From contig WELB01000068.1 of assembly GCA_009602725.1 (NCBI GenBank), positions 506,001 through 544,924 on the forward strand: a stretch of DNA of 38,924 nt, written 5' to 3'. The notes below the pieces were generated by a model. The model had not been told where the DNA came from, made no database searches, and worked only from the letters and a program-made list of their open reading frames with translations. The position numbers and the translations under genes are program-made. Each line of letters begins with the position of its first letter. Within the stretch, counting starts at the first letter, position 1. Below, piece by piece: positions 10,850-34,969 of the stretch. The stretch is from Spirogloea muscicola (lineage: Eukaryota > Streptophyta > Zygnematophyceae > Spirogloeales > Spirogloeaceae).

Positions 10850-11960
10850 TCGGATGTGTTTCCCGATGCTCTTCCAGACGGTTTGCCTCCTGACCGAGGC
10901 GTGTCTCATACAATTCCGTTGGAGCCCGGCGCTTCGCCGCCGTACCGTCCGATGTCTCGACTGAGTCCTCTCGAATTTCGGGAGATGCAGTTCCATTTGG
11001 AGGAAGTGCTACGGAAAGGCCACATAGAGCTTTCCCAGTCGCCTACGGTGCACCAATCCTCTTCGTGAAAAAGGAATGGTAGTCTTCGAATGTGCATCGA
11101 TTGTCGAGCCCTGAACAAGCTCACTGTCAAGAATGAGTATCTTTTGCCTCGAATTGACGACCTGTTCGATCGTCTAGCGGGAGCTAATGTGTTCAGCTCC
11201 CTCGACTTGCAAAGCGGCTATCATTAAATTCGTATCATCCCTGAGGACGTCCCGAAGTCGGCGTTCCGCACGCCCCTCGGTCACTTCCAGTTTAATGTGC
11301 TCGGCATTGGTCTGACCAATGCACCTGCCACATTCAGGCTATGATGACGAAAGTCTTTGGCCCCCTATGTGTCTCTGTGCTGGTCTATTTGGACGACTTA
11401 CTGGTGTTTAGTAAAACGCCTGAGGAGCACATACGACACCTGCGGCAGGTGCTGCAATTACTGCGTGCAAACCAGTTGTATGCCAAGAGATCCAAATGTG
11501 TATTTAAGCAGCCTGAGCTGACATACTTAGGGCATGTCGTGGGCAGAGACGGGGTACGCGTCGACCCCCGAACGACTGCAGTAGTAAAGGACTGGCCAGT
11601 GCCGCGGAATGTGCCACAGTTGCGTTCCTTCTTGGGATTCGCACATTACTTCGCAAGTTCTTACGAGGATACGGAAGTATGGCATCTCCTCTTACGAAGC
11701 TCACTCGTAAGGACGTCAGCTGGGTGTGGACGTCCGAAAGCCAGGAAGCATCCGAGGGTATCAAACAGGTCCTGGTGCATCCACCCATTTTGGCCTTGCC
11801 TCGAGAAGGCGTGCCATCTGAAGTAGTATATGACGCCTCTTTGATCGGCATCGGTGCCGTTCTCTTGCAGGAGGGTCACCCCGTAGCATTGAAAGTCGCC
11901 TGCTTCGTTCTGCAGAGCGTAACTACCCTACGGGGGAGCAAGAGCTCCTTGCTGTTGTGC
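10850..11960 (+). pseudogene. reverse transcriptase remnant
   Basis: The RT starts at LPDGLPPDRGVSHTIPLEPG and continues through SPLEFREMQFHLEE, then after a frameshift [13 protein letters not shown] and [11 protein letters not shown]. It is then hit by an in-frame TAA (about 11226). After another shift near 11338 it contains the catalytic YLDDLLVFSKT block and YLGHVVG. One more shift near 11660 leads to the RT-RNase H connection (DASLIGIGAVLLQEG). At least three frameshifts and one stop are visible. Confidence 0.93.
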
Positions 11961-12430
11961 ACGCTCTACGTGCGTGGCGATGCTATATCGAGGGTGCTGA
12001 CTTTACGGTTGTAACGGACCACTGTCCGTTGACCTACTTTCACACACAACAGCAATTGAGCAGGCGACAAGCACGGTGGGCTGAGTGTATAGCACAACTC
12101 CGTTTCCAGTGGGTGTTCCGCCCTGGAAGAATGAATGTTGCGGACCCGGTGAGCCGCAACATTGCAGGGGCTGCTGTGGCGGCTGTCTTGCACGCTTCAA
12201 GGGGTCAGACCGCAGACGTGCGGCCTACTCGTGGAGCTGCTCGGCAGTCCACCGCCGACCTCTCTGAGCTGTACGTACGTATTCGTGATGGGTATGGCAC
12301 AGACCCATGGTTTGCAGATGAAACCAATACACTCACACTAGTACATGACCAAGGCTTTCGGTGGCGAGGTGACGCCATCGTAGTCCCTGACTGCAATGCC
12401 TTGCGTAGCTATCTTGCAAGAACTGCATGA
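11957..12430 (+). pseudogene. RNase H domain remnant
   Basis: The frame contains RCYIEGADFTVVTDHCPLTY, LSRRQARWAE and GRMNVADPVSR, the usual C-terminal part of gypsy RNase H and the tether to integrase. It ends at TGA about 12428. Confidence 0.9.
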
Positions 12431-28680: not shown

Positions 28681-28719
28681 TCCCCTCACGCCCGCCAGCC
28701 CGGCGCGCCGGGCCTCCCC

Positions 28720-31700
28720 ATGGCCCCGCACCCCGCCTCCCCGCCCCGCCGCCGCCTCCTCCTCCTCCTCCTCCTCCTCGCCGCCGCCGCCCGCTCCCCG
28801 GCCCTGCCCACTCCCCCGCCTCCGGACCCGCTCTCCCGCCCCTCCCTGCCCCCAGCCACGGTCTCCAGATCCCACGACAAGGGGCCTGCAGCAGCTGGCA
28901 ATGGAAGCCTCCAGCGGCACGCATGCCTCGCGGAGCTGCAGCAAGAGTATCTGGGCAAGGTCAGGGCAGCAGTCGGGAACCGCAGAGCGCTTCTGCTGGA
29001 CATCTCCCCGGCCGACGGCTGGAGCTTTGGGGACAGCCTTATGCAGGTACTTCGTCAGATCCTCGTCCTTGCCGTCTCGTGGAAGCCCTACATTCCCGGC
29101 GTATGGACGTAGCAGGCCTCTGACTGACTGGTGCACGGGAGGCTGCGTGAGCACAGTACGGGCAGGAGTTGCTGCTGGCCCACCTTCCTGTGGGGTCCAC
29201 CAGGGTGGGGTGCTCCCGCAAAAGCTGCGACGTTGAGGCGGTCAAGAAGCTCCTGGATGTGGACACGGTCATCCTCCTCCCCGTAAGCCACTGCCAGCAT
29301 CCTGCATCAGCTTGGAGCTCAAGCTGCAGTGCCGTCCTCCGCAGCAGGTTGGTTGCTGATGGTGAGGCAGATCCTTACTGCATTGTCCTGGCTGCTGCAG
29401 GAGGATCACCACTTTGGCGACGTGCGGAGGTCACATTCCACATTCCGAAACATGCTGCTGAGCAAGTTCGCAGAGCATCAGATAGTGATGCTTCCCCAGG
29501 GCATCCATTACCGCCAAAAGGAGCAGGCCAATGAGGATGCGGCTCACTTTGCAAAGCACGCTCACCATCTCCGGCTTCTTGTCCGTGATCAGGTGATTGC
29601 ATGTTTGTTTGAGTTTGTTCGCGTACTGCAGAGCAGGGGGACCTTGACCTGTATTTGCAAGTGATATCCAGAACGGGAGTGACCTTTAGGTGCTCTTTCG
29701 TCTGCCGTGGTTGAAGGTTTCGCTGAATGCAAGTAAAGAGCTCTTTCCAGAAATTCGGTCGGAGATCTGCCCATCAGCTGCATTCATGGTGGGGCCCATC
29801 CAGCGGCCTAAGTGCTCAGCAGATCGTGGCCGAGAAGTGGACATCCTCATCCTTACCACTCTTTCCAGAGCCGGGAGGAGCAGGATTGGAGACCATCTCA
29901 AAAAGGTTATTGTCAGCTTGGAGGTGGAGGGGGTAGCTTTTCAACTCAGCGACTGGCCTCATATGACGCTGCCCATTGGTTCAAAGCCTCTCCTTGAGCT
30001 CCTCAAGGTACACCCCAACCTACTGCTCGGAGTACCATCTCAACCTTACCTTGTCAATACGCAGTGTGGTGAGAGATGCCCTTGAGAAGAGTGGCTTGAT
30101 ACTAGCTCAGGGGCTGCGCCCCTGGCTTCGCCCCTGCGTCGGCAGCTCCATGAGAATGTACAAGTCACAAATGTCATGTTGCCAAGTGCAGGCCAGGGTG
30201 GAAGCAGGAGGAGACTTGATTTGCAGGGGTCAAGTGGTGGTGACAGATAGCCTGCCGGGCATTCTTGTTGCTGTGCTTGCAGGTAGAGACCTTGTGGTGA
30301 TGGATGGTCGTCATGGAGCTCTGGCAGCCTTCTGGGCTACACACTTTGCTACCCGTCTCGCCTGCTCCAGCGGACACCTTGCTATACCCAGAGCATCAAC
30401 TTGGGCTGCCGCCGTGCACCTTGCCAAGTCCCTTGTGACCTCCCAAGGTATTGTCCCCTTCCTGAAATCGCTTCCTTTGTGAGTGCAGCTTGAACTCTTG
30501 TCAGTACACAGTATGTACTCTTTGAGCATATTCTGAGCAGCGCTGTTGTTTCTACAGACACGGGGTATCCAATCTCAGCAAGTGCTTTCCTGGAGCAGGA
30601 GGAGCAGGAGGCCGCAGATGATCCTCCTGCTGAAACAGACCTTAAATCCCCAGACACATCACGATATCAGGTTGCTGGTCATGGTGTCCTGCTGGGCCAC
30701 TTTGACCAAGATGAGCTGAGGAGGGCAGTCTTGAGCCTTCGGGAGGGAGTTAGGGGCCCTAGAACGAGCCCACTGGCATGCCCAGGAGGAGAATGCCCAG
30801 AGTTCCGGAGATGCCACAGCGAGTTTGCGGGTGTGTCAGCATGCAGTATCAGCTCGCTTGCCGACGAGTATCAATCCATGAAGGCTCCTCTGAATTGTCC
30901 ACCTCTTAGGAGACATGCCACACAAGAAGGAGACAATTTGGAGCTGCTGGTGCACGACCCCACATGCACTCACATCCAGGACTTCAAGCGTCACGAGAGA
31001 TTTAATTATCAAGTGTTCGTTCTGCACAATGTGTACTTCAACTCGAGGGGGCAGGCCTTCAACAGCACTCACTACTTTGAGAGGTAAGTGGAATAGGGAG
31101 ATTGCAGGACCTCGTGACTAGTGAAATTCACACTGCAGTGTCCCAGCTTCTGGTCGTCCTCACCGTCCACGTCCACTCCGTTATAGTCGTACGTCTTCAC
31201 CACCTTCTCGCGCTTCACTTCATCTCAATCTCAACGTGCACTTTGTGACAATACAGGAATGATTGCTCTTCAGCTCGAAGATTTGCATATCAAGCTGGGA
31301 CAAATGTGACATATTTCAAGGATATAGTCAACTTTGCCCAGTGGAATGGAGGTGCATTTTTCCATGGTCTCATTGAGGTCCTTCCTCATTTTGTGCTTAT
31401 GGGTGGTCTTCTGGAAAAGCTTAAGGGCATCCCTATCGCTCACAGACAAGGGCAATCGATCTTCCACCACCTTGTCGGGGAGGCTATGCTTGGGCTGCCA
31501 TTGTCTGAACCGAGTGTGTTCAATATCAAGGACATGACTGACAAGGAGTTATTCTTTGCTGAGCGCCTGATCATGCCACTTTTCATGCACTGCGGGCGTC
31601 CAGCCCGAAGTGTCATGAGGTACTTGCGTAGCCACTTCTATTTGACTCAGAACGGACTCCCTATTTTCAATCCTGACTACAGTCTGCGGAAGCGCTCCGT

Positions 31701-32271
31701 GGCTCCTCAAATGCACAACCTCGAGAATTGGGTCGTTGTCCTAGGAAAAAGGTAAGGTATTGCTTCCTCTTCAGTGTCTGGCCAATGTGTACTCTGCAGA
31801 GTAGACATGCTGACATCTCCTGAGCAGTGTACTTAATGTCACCTCGTGGTGCATGCTTGATCCAGGTACCATACCCGAGGCTTAGTGCAGAGCGATGAAG
31901 TTCAGGCTGTGATGGAATCGCTTTGGGGAAAGGAGAGGGTGGTAATCTTTGATGGGAGCTTGCCAATTCTTGAGGCTAAGGCGCTGTTGAACAGAGCTCG
32001 TCTCTTTGTGGCTGTGCATGGAGCGCACATGGCCAACATGCTCCTCATGCCAGTCAATGCCACGATCGTGGAAATTCGGCCCATCTTGTATGCAAACCCA
32101 TGCTTTCACCACCTTGCAGAGGTTTGCCAATTACAGTACTATTTGCTGATGGCTGAAGGCAGTAAGGATTCGTGGGCAGATGTCAACATCAGCAAGGTGG
32201 AAGCTGTACTCAAAAGTGTTGCTGCTGACTTCCACAAACAACCTCCCGGGGCTGCGAGTATGTTTAGTTGA
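28720..32271 (+). CDS. polysaccharide pyruvyl transferase-like / GT61-like fusion protein
   Basis: Exons 28720-29046, 29157-29282, 29401-29592, 29717-29905, 30033-30447, 30558-31083, 31257-31751 and 31866-32271 join in phase to about 891 aa. Residues 13-24 are Leu/Ala-rich after an Arg cluster: a signal anchor for the Golgi or ER. Residues about 65-450 match polysaccharide pyruvyl transferases (FGDSLM; VILLP; HFGDVRRSH; IVMLPQGIHY; LRLLVRDQ; CPSAAFMVGP; VVVTDSLPG), enzymes that add pyruvate ketals to sugars. Residues about 530-880 match GT61/DUF563 glycosyltransferases (FVLHNVYFNSRG; GAFFHGLIEVLPHFVLMGG; FVAVHGAHMANMLLMP; ATIVEIRP), inverting enzymes of glycan synthesis. The usual pyruvyl-transferase TDRLHG motif is TDSLPG. 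The 29905-30033 junction is the least certain: 29906-30007 is also open in frame. Donor and sugar are unknown. Confidence 0.87.
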
Positions 32272-32710
32272 TTTTATTTGACTTAATCAAACATTAATGT
32301 GACAACAACTTCCTTGTACATGTGGTGCTTTCCCTGCAATTCGTGGCCCAGCGTGGTAAAGCTTGAGGAATTGATTGTCTTTGGTCTTCATGAAGCAACG
32401 ACTCTTAACGGCTCAAACAAATGGAAATGTTTTGGACAAGGCAGGATTTGCATGTCCTGCCTGAGCTCAAGTGCCTGGCGCGGGTGCAATAGATGGGACA
32501 TGTGCCAGCTGCTTTCAGGAAGATGTGACGTTTTCTCACTTTGTTTTTGCCCTGCAATGAAATGGAAGCAACTCAGCACGCACTTCGCGTGGAGCAAGCG
32601 GTCCTCTCCTTGCTTCAAAGGTGAGCTACAGGGTTTTCGCTTTGGGTTGACCAGATTCGTTTTTGGAAGGACATGTTGATGACTATTTGCTTGGCACTCG
32701 CGGTTGAATT
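32272..32710. other. intergenic, tail-to-tail between fusion gene and EF-P gene
   Basis: The 3' flanks of two converging genes are here. An open frame at 32299-32679 is Cys/Trp-rich but has no splice or family support. Nothing else is seen. Confidence 0.45.
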
Positions 32711-34906
32711 TTAAGCAATGCTATACCTTGTCACATAAGAGTCCGTGATGGTGTCGACGACAATGTCATCCCCTATTACAACAAAGCTGGGTACCTGTTT
32801 CACAAATATGGTTAGGACATTGGCAGCGTCTTTGGTTCCATTTAGATGACAATATTGAATCTTCTGGTGTTCGCTGACAGCGGGTCCGGTTTTCTTTGGA
32901 TGACATGCGTTTCTCTGGTCCATCCTCACTAACACAAGGAACAGATATAAACCGCCGCACTTGCTTGAGAGAGCGGTTTTGCAGCAAGCTACCGCTTGAG
33001 CATTTACCTCTATCTGCTTGCCGTTTCCAACAACTGCCTTCTTGTAGCTTGGCCAAGTCACACGTGCCCACGATTGCGAAGTCAGCAGGGAAATCATTAG
33101 AAGCAGCATACACGTCGGACTTGCAGAGAAACGGCAGCAGGCACATCCGCCTATAGGTGTAATACTCTTGTCTTGTCATAGTTATACTACAGGTGACAGG
33201 TATCTCACAACGGCTGGAAGAATGAAGAGACTTGTCAAAAGCTTATATGAAGTAAGCAGCTGCAGTTGGAATTTGTGTGTCTTCAGCACTATCTGTGCCG
33301 TTAGGGAGAAGGGTGCTGCAGAGTCATGTTGCTCACGAAGGCGTAGCTGCTTGGCCCTTGAAATAAGGCTCTGTTTCGATCACTGATACAGTCAACCGTG
33401 TGGGCACTGTGGCACCTATGGCCCGTCCATTGTACTGCTGCACTGACACTTGCATCCCATCTGCCACATCTCAGAGATACTGTCATCTGCCAGTTGCTCG
33501 GTCACGGAGTGCGGAATAGTGAAACATTGAGGTCCACTGCTGGCTTGACCATTGGAGAAAGCACAGGTTACAACTGTATGACGACTTTCTAACAAGCTGA
33601 CCTGTTATATAAGCTGCAGCATTTCCGAATAATGATTTGTCCAAATGGACCTGCTCGAAACTCTCCGGGCTGCACATCATGTCGGAAGATTTAGCGGTGC
33701 GAAATACAGTACTGACGTGCAAGCTGCTCGGGTCATAGCTTTCAGATACGAGAGCCAGAACTGAGATACTCCGGCGCACTTTCATCAAGACAGCCAGGTG
33801 GTCTTCCTCGTGGCCTTTCTTCTACGAACGTATAGTAAGACAGAGTTGACGTGCACATACTGGAGAGCACACACTTCAGCCACGAAAGCCAGTAATAAGA
33901 CACTGCAGCGGCACTTACTCCATCAAGACAGCTGAGCTGCCATCCTCGTAAAGAAACGTGTAGGGCCTCTCGACCACAAACACCTCTACATGGTCATGGG
34001 AGAAAAAAGTAGCTGGTGACTGCACGGAGCCTGCAGATTTGAGGTATCGAAAGAAGCTCCTTCCACTCAAGCAAGGCGCATGTTGTGCGTACTTTCGATG
34101 TTTTCCGTTGTCCGTAGCCGCTCGTTGCTCTTTGCACCTGTCTGCAAATCCCTTAGCTCAACCTGCAAAGCCAGTGACGGCGATGGGTATGCACATTGTT
34201 CTCAGCACAATCAGCTTTGGCACCAAAAGCAGCCCTGCTTCTGCGTGCTGCGCCACCATGCAAGGTGGTGCTGCCAGATTCGTAAGCGAGGAGGCCAATG
34301 GATGAGTTGAGAGATGGAGTGCTGACCTGTATTGTGGCTCCTCCCCGGCCAGACTGGGTGTGCTGAGTGCCGACGACCTGCGCACAATGGCCACAGTGTG
34401 CTAGCAGGAGCTTGCCGTCTGTCTTGCAAATGCAGGAGGCCTCTCATTCGGCGATGCCAGAGAGCAACAGCGGTGGCCTGCGCGACGGCCTTTGCAGCAG
34501 CCTGAGAGCTCTGACCTGGTACAGGCGGCCTGATTCCAAAGCAGGCGTGACGATCAGCAGAGTGAGAAGCGGGCGAATGTTTGAAGCGAGGCGCTGGAGC
34601 AGCTGACTTGCAAGCTGCGCAAGGGGGGTGGTGGCACTGCAGGCAAGCACGGGGCTTTGAGCTGAATGGTTCTGGTTAAATGGGTTTTGGTTTTGGAGCG
34701 GACCTTTGAGCTGAATGACGATGCCCGGCTTGACCTGCAGGCAGCGGAGGGGGTGCGGCGCGCGTGAGGGCTGGAGAGGCCAAGGCCGCACGCGTCTAAG
34801 TGGCAGAGGGCCAGAGCGGGCACGGCGAGCCCCGCCGTCTCGGAGCGGGCGGACTGACCTCCGAGCCGGCGAGGCGCGCCAAGTGGCGGCGCAGTGGCGC
34901 CCACAT
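32711..34906 (-). CDS. elongation factor P, mitochondrial type
   Basis: EF-P helps bacterial-type ribosomes make difficult peptide bonds. Ten minus-strand exons join in phase to 198 codons plus stop, close to the usual 185-200: 34906-34859, 34734-34704, 34529-34516, 34377-34327, 34162-34093, 33985-33919, 33669-33602, 33460-33337, 33047-33008 and 32794-32711. The start MWAPLRRHLARLAGSE looks like a short mitochondrial presequence. EF-P blocks follow: KPGIVIQLKGRLYQ, GTQHTQSGRGGATIQ, VELRDLQTGAKSNERLRT, PYTFLYEDGSSAVLMD, SFEQVHLDKSLFGNAAAYI, DGMQVSVQQYNGRAIGA, VIETEPYFKGQAATPSYKKA and VPSFVVIGDDIVVDTITDSY. The loop that in bacterial EF-P carries the modified Lys reads QSGRGGA, as in plant mitochondrial forms. 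Exon 3 is only 14 nt. Some borders are weak (GTCCGC donor of exon 2; AAG acceptor of exon 9). Confidence 0.93.
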
Positions 34907-34969
34907 GGGGTGCGCGGGACCCGGCGTCGAGAACTCCTCCTGGGGACAGGAGCGTGTATACTGTTGAGA

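Follow-up and report, generated by a model that had tools for sequence, protein, structure and literature searches.

A three-copy gene of Spirogloea muscicola encodes a GT61-type protein whose pyruvyltransferase-like N-terminal half has an altered PEP site

Results

Structure of the fusion gene

The window, a stretch of 38,924 nucleotides from the streptophyte Spirogloea muscicola, carries at 28720-32271 of its forward strand a gene whose eight exons, when joined, encode a protein of 872 residues in a frame that is open throughout (Table 1). Both domains of the protein, the coordinates, the eight exons and the intron at the junction of the two halves agree with the original prediction. All seven introns have GT-AG borders. 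Their phases are 0 for introns 1 to 4, 1 for intron 5 and 2 for introns 6 and 7; the earlier description of one reading phase across eight exons therefore holds for the single continuous frame, but not for the introns.

Near the N-terminus the stretch RRRLLLLLLLLAAAARSPA reaches a mean hydropathy of 2.5 over its best 13 residues and resembles a signal peptide or short anchor. The predicted N-terminal anchor is matched by this hydrophobic stretch, which may instead be a signal peptide. Six N-glycosylation sequons are found in the protein, which is probably secretory, as had been proposed for this pair of domains. The start codon aligns in a second copy of the gene, located on the contig denoted C267 (see below). 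The bases just upstream can be aligned there only by opening gaps, including a single-base one, which makes coding sequence immediately 5' of the start codon unlikely.

Table 1. Exons and junction intron of the fusion gene (positions in the window; C267 and C300, the two other copies; C31 and C25, GT61 paralogs)
Feature	Position	Strand	Content
Exon 1	28720..29046	+	Start codon; hydrophobic stretch at about aa 12-25, apparently a signal peptide or short anchor; beginning of the pyruvyltransferase-like half, with GD motif
Exon 2	29157..29282	+	Pyruvyltransferase-like half; no indels in C267 and C300
Exon 3	29401..29592	+	Pyruvyltransferase-like half; EDHH replaces GGGN of close relatives; R217 equivalent present (VRDQ)
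Exon 4	29717..30007	+	Pyruvyltransferase-like half; D240 equivalent is S (CPSAAF)
Exon 5	30192..30447	+	End of pyruvyltransferase-like half; SLP replaces RLH of close relatives; K361 equivalent is A (GALAAF)
Junction intron between halves	30448..30557	+	Phase 1, 110 bases; donor and acceptor present in C267 and C300
Exon 6	30558..31083	+	Linker, then the Cys-rich N-terminal part of the GT61 half; common to paralogs C31 and C25 from about aa 468
Exon 7	31257..31751	+	GT61 domain; catalytic His motif WNGGAFFH; first Arg (GKR)
Exon 8	31866..32271	+	GT61 domain; second Arg; HGAHMAN motif; stop codon

Three other exon borders were rejected. An acceptor for exon 4 before 29690 keeps the frame open, but inserts nine residues, and an early donor at 29905 also leaves it open, but removes the DWP-motif stretch of the relatives. 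An intron that ends at 30282, ahead of GRDLVV, would place DGRHG at the position of RLH; the alignment running from DSLPG to GALAAF fits Pvg1p and 11 bacterial proteins, and the H of DGRHG is Q in both other copies.

Domain and fold matches

As the original prediction had anticipated, Pfam profiles matched both halves of the joined protein above their cut-offs: PS_pyruv_trans (PF04230) at residues 147-344 (E 1.2e-10, 42.2 bits against a curated cut-off of 25.3) and Glyco_transf_61 (PF04577) at residues 607-806 (E 9.4e-10, 39.3 bits against a cut-off of 27), the latter over profile positions 1-137 of 137. With E-values of 1e-9 or lower, and with dN below dS in both halves (see below), these matches are not a chance resemblance. 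A search of NCBIfam gave no match. The best match of the first half in a sequence search of the PDB was Pvg1p (5ax7; E 3.9e-12).

Residues 61-872 were modelled with AlphaFold2 from an alignment of 11 sequences, giving a mean pLDDT of 59 and a pTM of 0.42, with blocks of up to 91 in the first half. Long stretches have a pLDDT below 50, namely model positions 204-245 in the first half, 315-488 across the linker and into the GT61 half, and 638-669; the arrangement of the domains in the model is for this reason not trustworthy. In this low-confidence model the first half aligns with Pvg1p (5ax7_A) at Z 28.7 and rmsd 3.6, with 301 residues aligned over model 1-326, and Foldseek likewise returned Pvg1p as the best match of the model (E 8.4e-16). 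The first half also aligns with glycosyltransferases and sugar-nucleotide epimerases (Z about 10.4-11.7). For the GT61 half of the same low-confidence model, the alignment with POMGNT2 reaches Z 13.7 and rmsd 7.9, with 280 residues aligned over model 464-812.

Residues of the PEP site are replaced in the first half

R217, R337, L338 and H339 are reported to hold PEP in Pvg1p, in a pocket shaped by D240 (PMC6801904). A comparison with bacterial CsaB pairs the PEP residues R148/R217, R306/R337, H308/H339, K328/K361 and S88/G159 (CsaB/Pvg1p), and its list, in the part of the paper cited here, does not include L338 (PMC10435577). The CsaB variants H308A, H308R, R148K, R148Q and R207D are described as inactive, whereas H308S and H308K retain activity (PMC10435577). 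For Pvg1p, D106A was reported to be nearly inactive, and expression of the R217A and R337A variants failed (PMC4872226).

In the window protein the equivalents of R217 (VRDQ) and L338 (SLP) are present, and the GD motif (SFGDSL) aligns with the GD of bacterial relatives. Five positions are replaced relative to Pvg1p, namely G159 by H, D240 by S, R337 by S, H339 by P and K361 by A, and the same letters occur in both other copies of the gene. The position of R266 (CsaB R207) reads T in the phmmer alignment and R in the MAFFT alignment.

These positions were scored in two control sets: 11 Bacteroidales relatives, found by patterns that leave out the scored residues, and 16 PF04230 matches from 14 of 61 genomes of the same phylum, one of which is below the Pfam cut-off and some of which are partial. 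One gene is shared by the sets, and the 27 alignment rows thus represent 26 distinct genes. All 27 rows have H at H339 and one of K, R or H at position 361. R337 is R in 11/11 Bacteroidales proteins and in 12 of the 16 phylum-wide members, the other four having S, T or K; D240 is D in 11/11 and 11/16, respectively, and the GGG loop is found in 11/11 and 3/16. Given this conservation, the P at H339 and the A at K361 stand out, and the change at R337 does so less. Since R337, D240 and the GGG loop also vary among the 16 phylum-wide members, changes at these positions are weak evidence.

Loss of the histidine alone need not end transfer, because the H308S and H308K variants of CsaB are active; proline at this position and loss of the R337 equivalent are not among the CsaB variants described in the cited part of PMC10435577. 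With key active-site residues lost, the first half is probably a pseudo-pyruvyltransferase, that is, a non-enzymatic helper part rather than a working enzyme. The capping of a glycan with pyruvate, which had been proposed for this half, is not supported, given the S, P and A that stand in place of R337, H339 and K361 in all three copies.

The GT61 half

Members of GT61 are described as having an N-R-R set of residues for UDP, with a proposed catalytic His three positions C-terminal to the N; variation is known, as the set reads Y-R-R in two chlorophytes and is G-R-R in Proteobacteria (PMC13123520). By motif assignment from the sequence rather than superposition, the catalytic His (WNGGAFFH) and both Arg (GKRYHTR) are present in the window protein, and the Asn of the set is Ala in all three copies. 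This position was readable in seven of eight other GT61 loci of the genome, all but C227, and is D in five of them (C31, C25, C24, C171 and C93) and N in two (C102 and C371). Activity of the GT61 half as a transferase is plausible from these residues, and because the donor-site Asn is replaced by Ala, this half may be impaired as well. The GT61 family of this genome is large, with 36 exon-level matches, fusion copies included.

Two further copies of the fusion in the genome

A search of the genome (153 Mb in 471 contigs) detected two additional copies of the fusion, on the contigs denoted C267 and C300. GT and AG are conserved at each of the seven introns in both copies; C300 lacks the start of exon 1, which falls beyond the contig end. 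Identity to the window copy is 93-96% for each exon, compared with 90-91% for the introns overall. Intron 4 (30008-30191) is 97% identical between the window and C267, exceeding the other six introns of this pair (91% over all seven).

The earlier claim of a true fusion rather than an annotation merge is borne out by these two copies, with the same exons and splice sites, and by the lack of an in-frame start before the conserved GT61 part. Within the GT61 half no in-frame Met occurs before residue 505 (MKAPL), downstream of GT61 residues that are common to C31 and C25 from about residue 468, which makes a separate GT61 start unlikely. As far as DNA can show, the locus is one fused gene and not two, and a single transcript would span both halves.

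In the parts present, the first half reads through without stop codon or frameshift in all three copies. In the GT61 half, exon 7 of C267 has a one-base deletion, which shifts the frame, and a six-base deletion, and in C300 a stop codon replaces residue 862, by which the last 11 residues would be lost. These changes may be true lesions or assembly errors.

Searching with the protein located pyruvyltransferase-like exons at three sites of the genome, against the 36 exon-level matches to GT61, indicating that most GT61 genes of this genome have no detectable pyruvyltransferase-like half. A profile search of the whole genome with PF04230 gave no matches at E 0.001, presumably because the exons are short. 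In the approximately 4.4 kb upstream of the GT61 gene C31 the best match to the pyruvyltransferase half had E 1.2 and was taken as chance; this comparison rests on C31, as a long run of N lies upstream of C25. A weak extra match to the pyruvyltransferase half lies at C71:119363-119668 (E 1.0, 28% identity).

BLAST homology with C267 spans 28711 to 34918 of the window, and homology with C300 spans 28887, where the C300 contig ends, to 34929, with more pieces, amid repeats, up to 35873. The 10 kb upstream of the C267 copy contain no match to the window at 1e-20, and the 5 kb beyond the right-hand end of the window do not match the flanking sequences compared from C267 and C300. Spirogloea muscicola is reported to have undergone a genome triplication (PMC7994812), and the three fusion copies would be its products; alternatively, they may be uncollapsed haplotypes or segmental duplicates.

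Selective constraint differs between the halves

Pairwise comparison of the three copies gives a dN/dS of 0.37-0.47 in the pyruvyltransferase half and of 0.10-0.21 in the GT61 half. An excess of dS over dN is observed in the first half (p 0.0198, 0.0009 and 0.0012 for three non-independent pairs, uncorrected) and in the GT61 half (p 8e-9 or less, pairs likewise non-independent and uncorrected). The contrast between the halves has p values of 0.017, 0.44 and 0.007, hence two of the three pairs differ. The first half is maintained, under looser constraint than the GT61 half. This fits a helper module, and fits slow decay as well.

Discussion

Relation to known enzymes

The nearest known system for the first half is Pvg1p, the Golgi 4,6-ketal-pyruvyltransferase of S. 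pombe, which is its best match in the PDB by sequence and fold and is itself a eukaryotic secretory-pathway protein. Pvg1p is active and has no GT61 half, whereas the window protein has a GT61 half behind a domain in which R337, H339, K361, D240 and the glycine loop are replaced. Bacterial CsaB-like and Pvg1p-like pyruvyltransferases (PF04230) share the homologous domain, with 22-25% identity to eight aligned Bacteroidales proteins. The frames of the 16 phylum-wide members measure 283-456 aa, too short for both domains, and all of them have the His and a basic residue at 361. The second half shares with POMGNT2/EOGT and with plant GT61 enzymes (core beta-1,2-XylT, XAT and XYXT) the GT61 Pfam match, the catalytic His, the paired Arg and the HGA motif, and POMGNT2 is its fold match in the low-confidence model. 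In contrast to these proteins, the window protein has Ala for the Asn of the N-R-R set and an extra N-terminal pyruvyltransferase-like half.

No description of a PS_pyruv_trans and GT61 fusion was found in the literature searched, mostly open-access papers, and any novelty of the architecture is provisional. In viral contigs, two stretches matched the search patterns and neither encodes a relative; this search used the first half alone as query and detects close relatives only.

A proposed secretory GT61 protein with a pseudo-pyruvyltransferase half

We consider it somewhat better than an even chance that the gene encodes a secretory GT61 transferase joined to a non-catalytic, pseudo-pyruvyltransferase N-terminal half. 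Most likely, the signal sequence would direct the protein into the secretory pathway, and in the Golgi or the ER the GT61 half would transfer a sugar to a glycan of the wall or of a glycoprotein, with UDP-pentose or UDP-GlcNAc as the donor suggested by family precedent. The first half would have the two-lobed fold of Pvg1p with no working PEP site and, acting without catalysis, would hold the acceptor glycan, stabilise the enzyme or pair it with partners.

Another reading regards the first half as a relic and the gene copies as turning into pseudogenes. The frameshift and six-base deletion of C267, the early stop of C300 and the higher dN/dS of the first half are consistent with it, but the copy in the window is intact, both halves show dN below dS, the first half is free of stops and frameshifts wherever it is present, and the lesions of C267 and C300 are possibly assembly errors. 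We think such decay unlikely.

About as doubtful is a scenario in which an algal lineage captured a pyruvyltransferase fold that gave up its PEP chemistry and was rebuilt into a new head, binding donor or acceptor, of a GT61 enzyme. If this were true, the protein would be a two-headed glycan synthase; we found no counterpart of such an enzyme, and to our knowledge none is known. That the fold now provides a second site, catalytic or ligand-sensing, with another donor, which would make the protein a two-headed transferase, seems quite improbable to us. The alignment of the first half with glycosyltransferases and sugar-nucleotide epimerases, the alteration of the pocket residues as a set and the persistence of the fold match and of dN below dS would agree with such a site; however, no known donor motif was recognised in the altered pocket, and dN/dS of the first half is above that of the GT61 half, unlike what a fully active site would show.

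We regard as very unlikely a bifunctional enzyme in which the GT61 half adds a sugar that the pyruvyltransferase half caps with PEP-derived pyruvate. The Pfam score above cut-off, the fold match to Pvg1p, the R217 and L338 equivalents, the constraint on the first half and the reported tolerance of CsaB for H308S and H308K speak for it; against it stand the three replacements at R337, H339 and K361 in every copy, the H at position 339 in 26/26 distinct bacterial relatives and the inactivity described for CsaB H308A and H308R. Two separate genes that merely seem joined are hardly credible, even if the frame of exon 5 continued into the junction intron meets a stop at 30480-30482, making an unspliced first gene conceivable, since the halves lie just 110 bases apart, the donor and acceptor between them are conserved in three copies and the first Met of the GT61 half comes too late for the residues common to C31 and C25.

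Eukaryotic ketal-pyruvyltransferases are little known. A 2019 review counts three functionally characterised ketal-pyruvyltransferases, of which one, Pvg1p, is eukaryotic (PMC6801904). If our preferred reading of a pseudo-pyruvyltransferase joined to GT61 is true, the gene would clearly exemplify how the fold of an enzyme can become a helper module for making glycans. It would also caution that a PS_pyruv_trans Pfam label by itself is no predictor of pyruvylated walls. The three copies provide a natural set for comparing function.

Surroundings of the gene

Dispersed repeats lie at about 26.1-28.6 kb and 36.1-38.9 kb of the window, and near 3.4, 6.7 and 17.6 kb. The same repeats flank the C267 and C300 copies and extend close to the start of the fusion gene. 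The window contains 739 N in total, with a run of N at about 25.4-26.2 kb, which is either a gap or a withheld stretch. In a Pfam scan of ten other ORFs of the window, seven had no match. At the left edge of the window, 3-605 on the forward strand gave a weak match to an OTU-like cysteine protease (PF02338, E 0.0046, below cut-off). Elsewhere in the genome, some LHC matches occur in threes whose scores are nearly the same, such as those on C229, C24 and C8. An LHC protein of the genome, put together from two exons by eye, was compared with the PDB; among 60 of the 89 matches it scored 556 bits with 9vfj_2, over two stretches of a 620-residue chain, 447 with moss entries, 427 and below with seed plants, 407 with Chlamydomonas and 360 with a siphonaxanthin LHC. 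These scores suggest a streptophyte alga and make a siphonous green seaweed, a group with pyruvylated galactans, an unlikely source. A search for RuBisCO gave no match. Retroelement remains are present at 11296-12427 of the forward strand, with matches to reverse transcriptase (PF00078, E 1.8e-12) and an RNase H-like domain (PF17917, E 5.1e-22).
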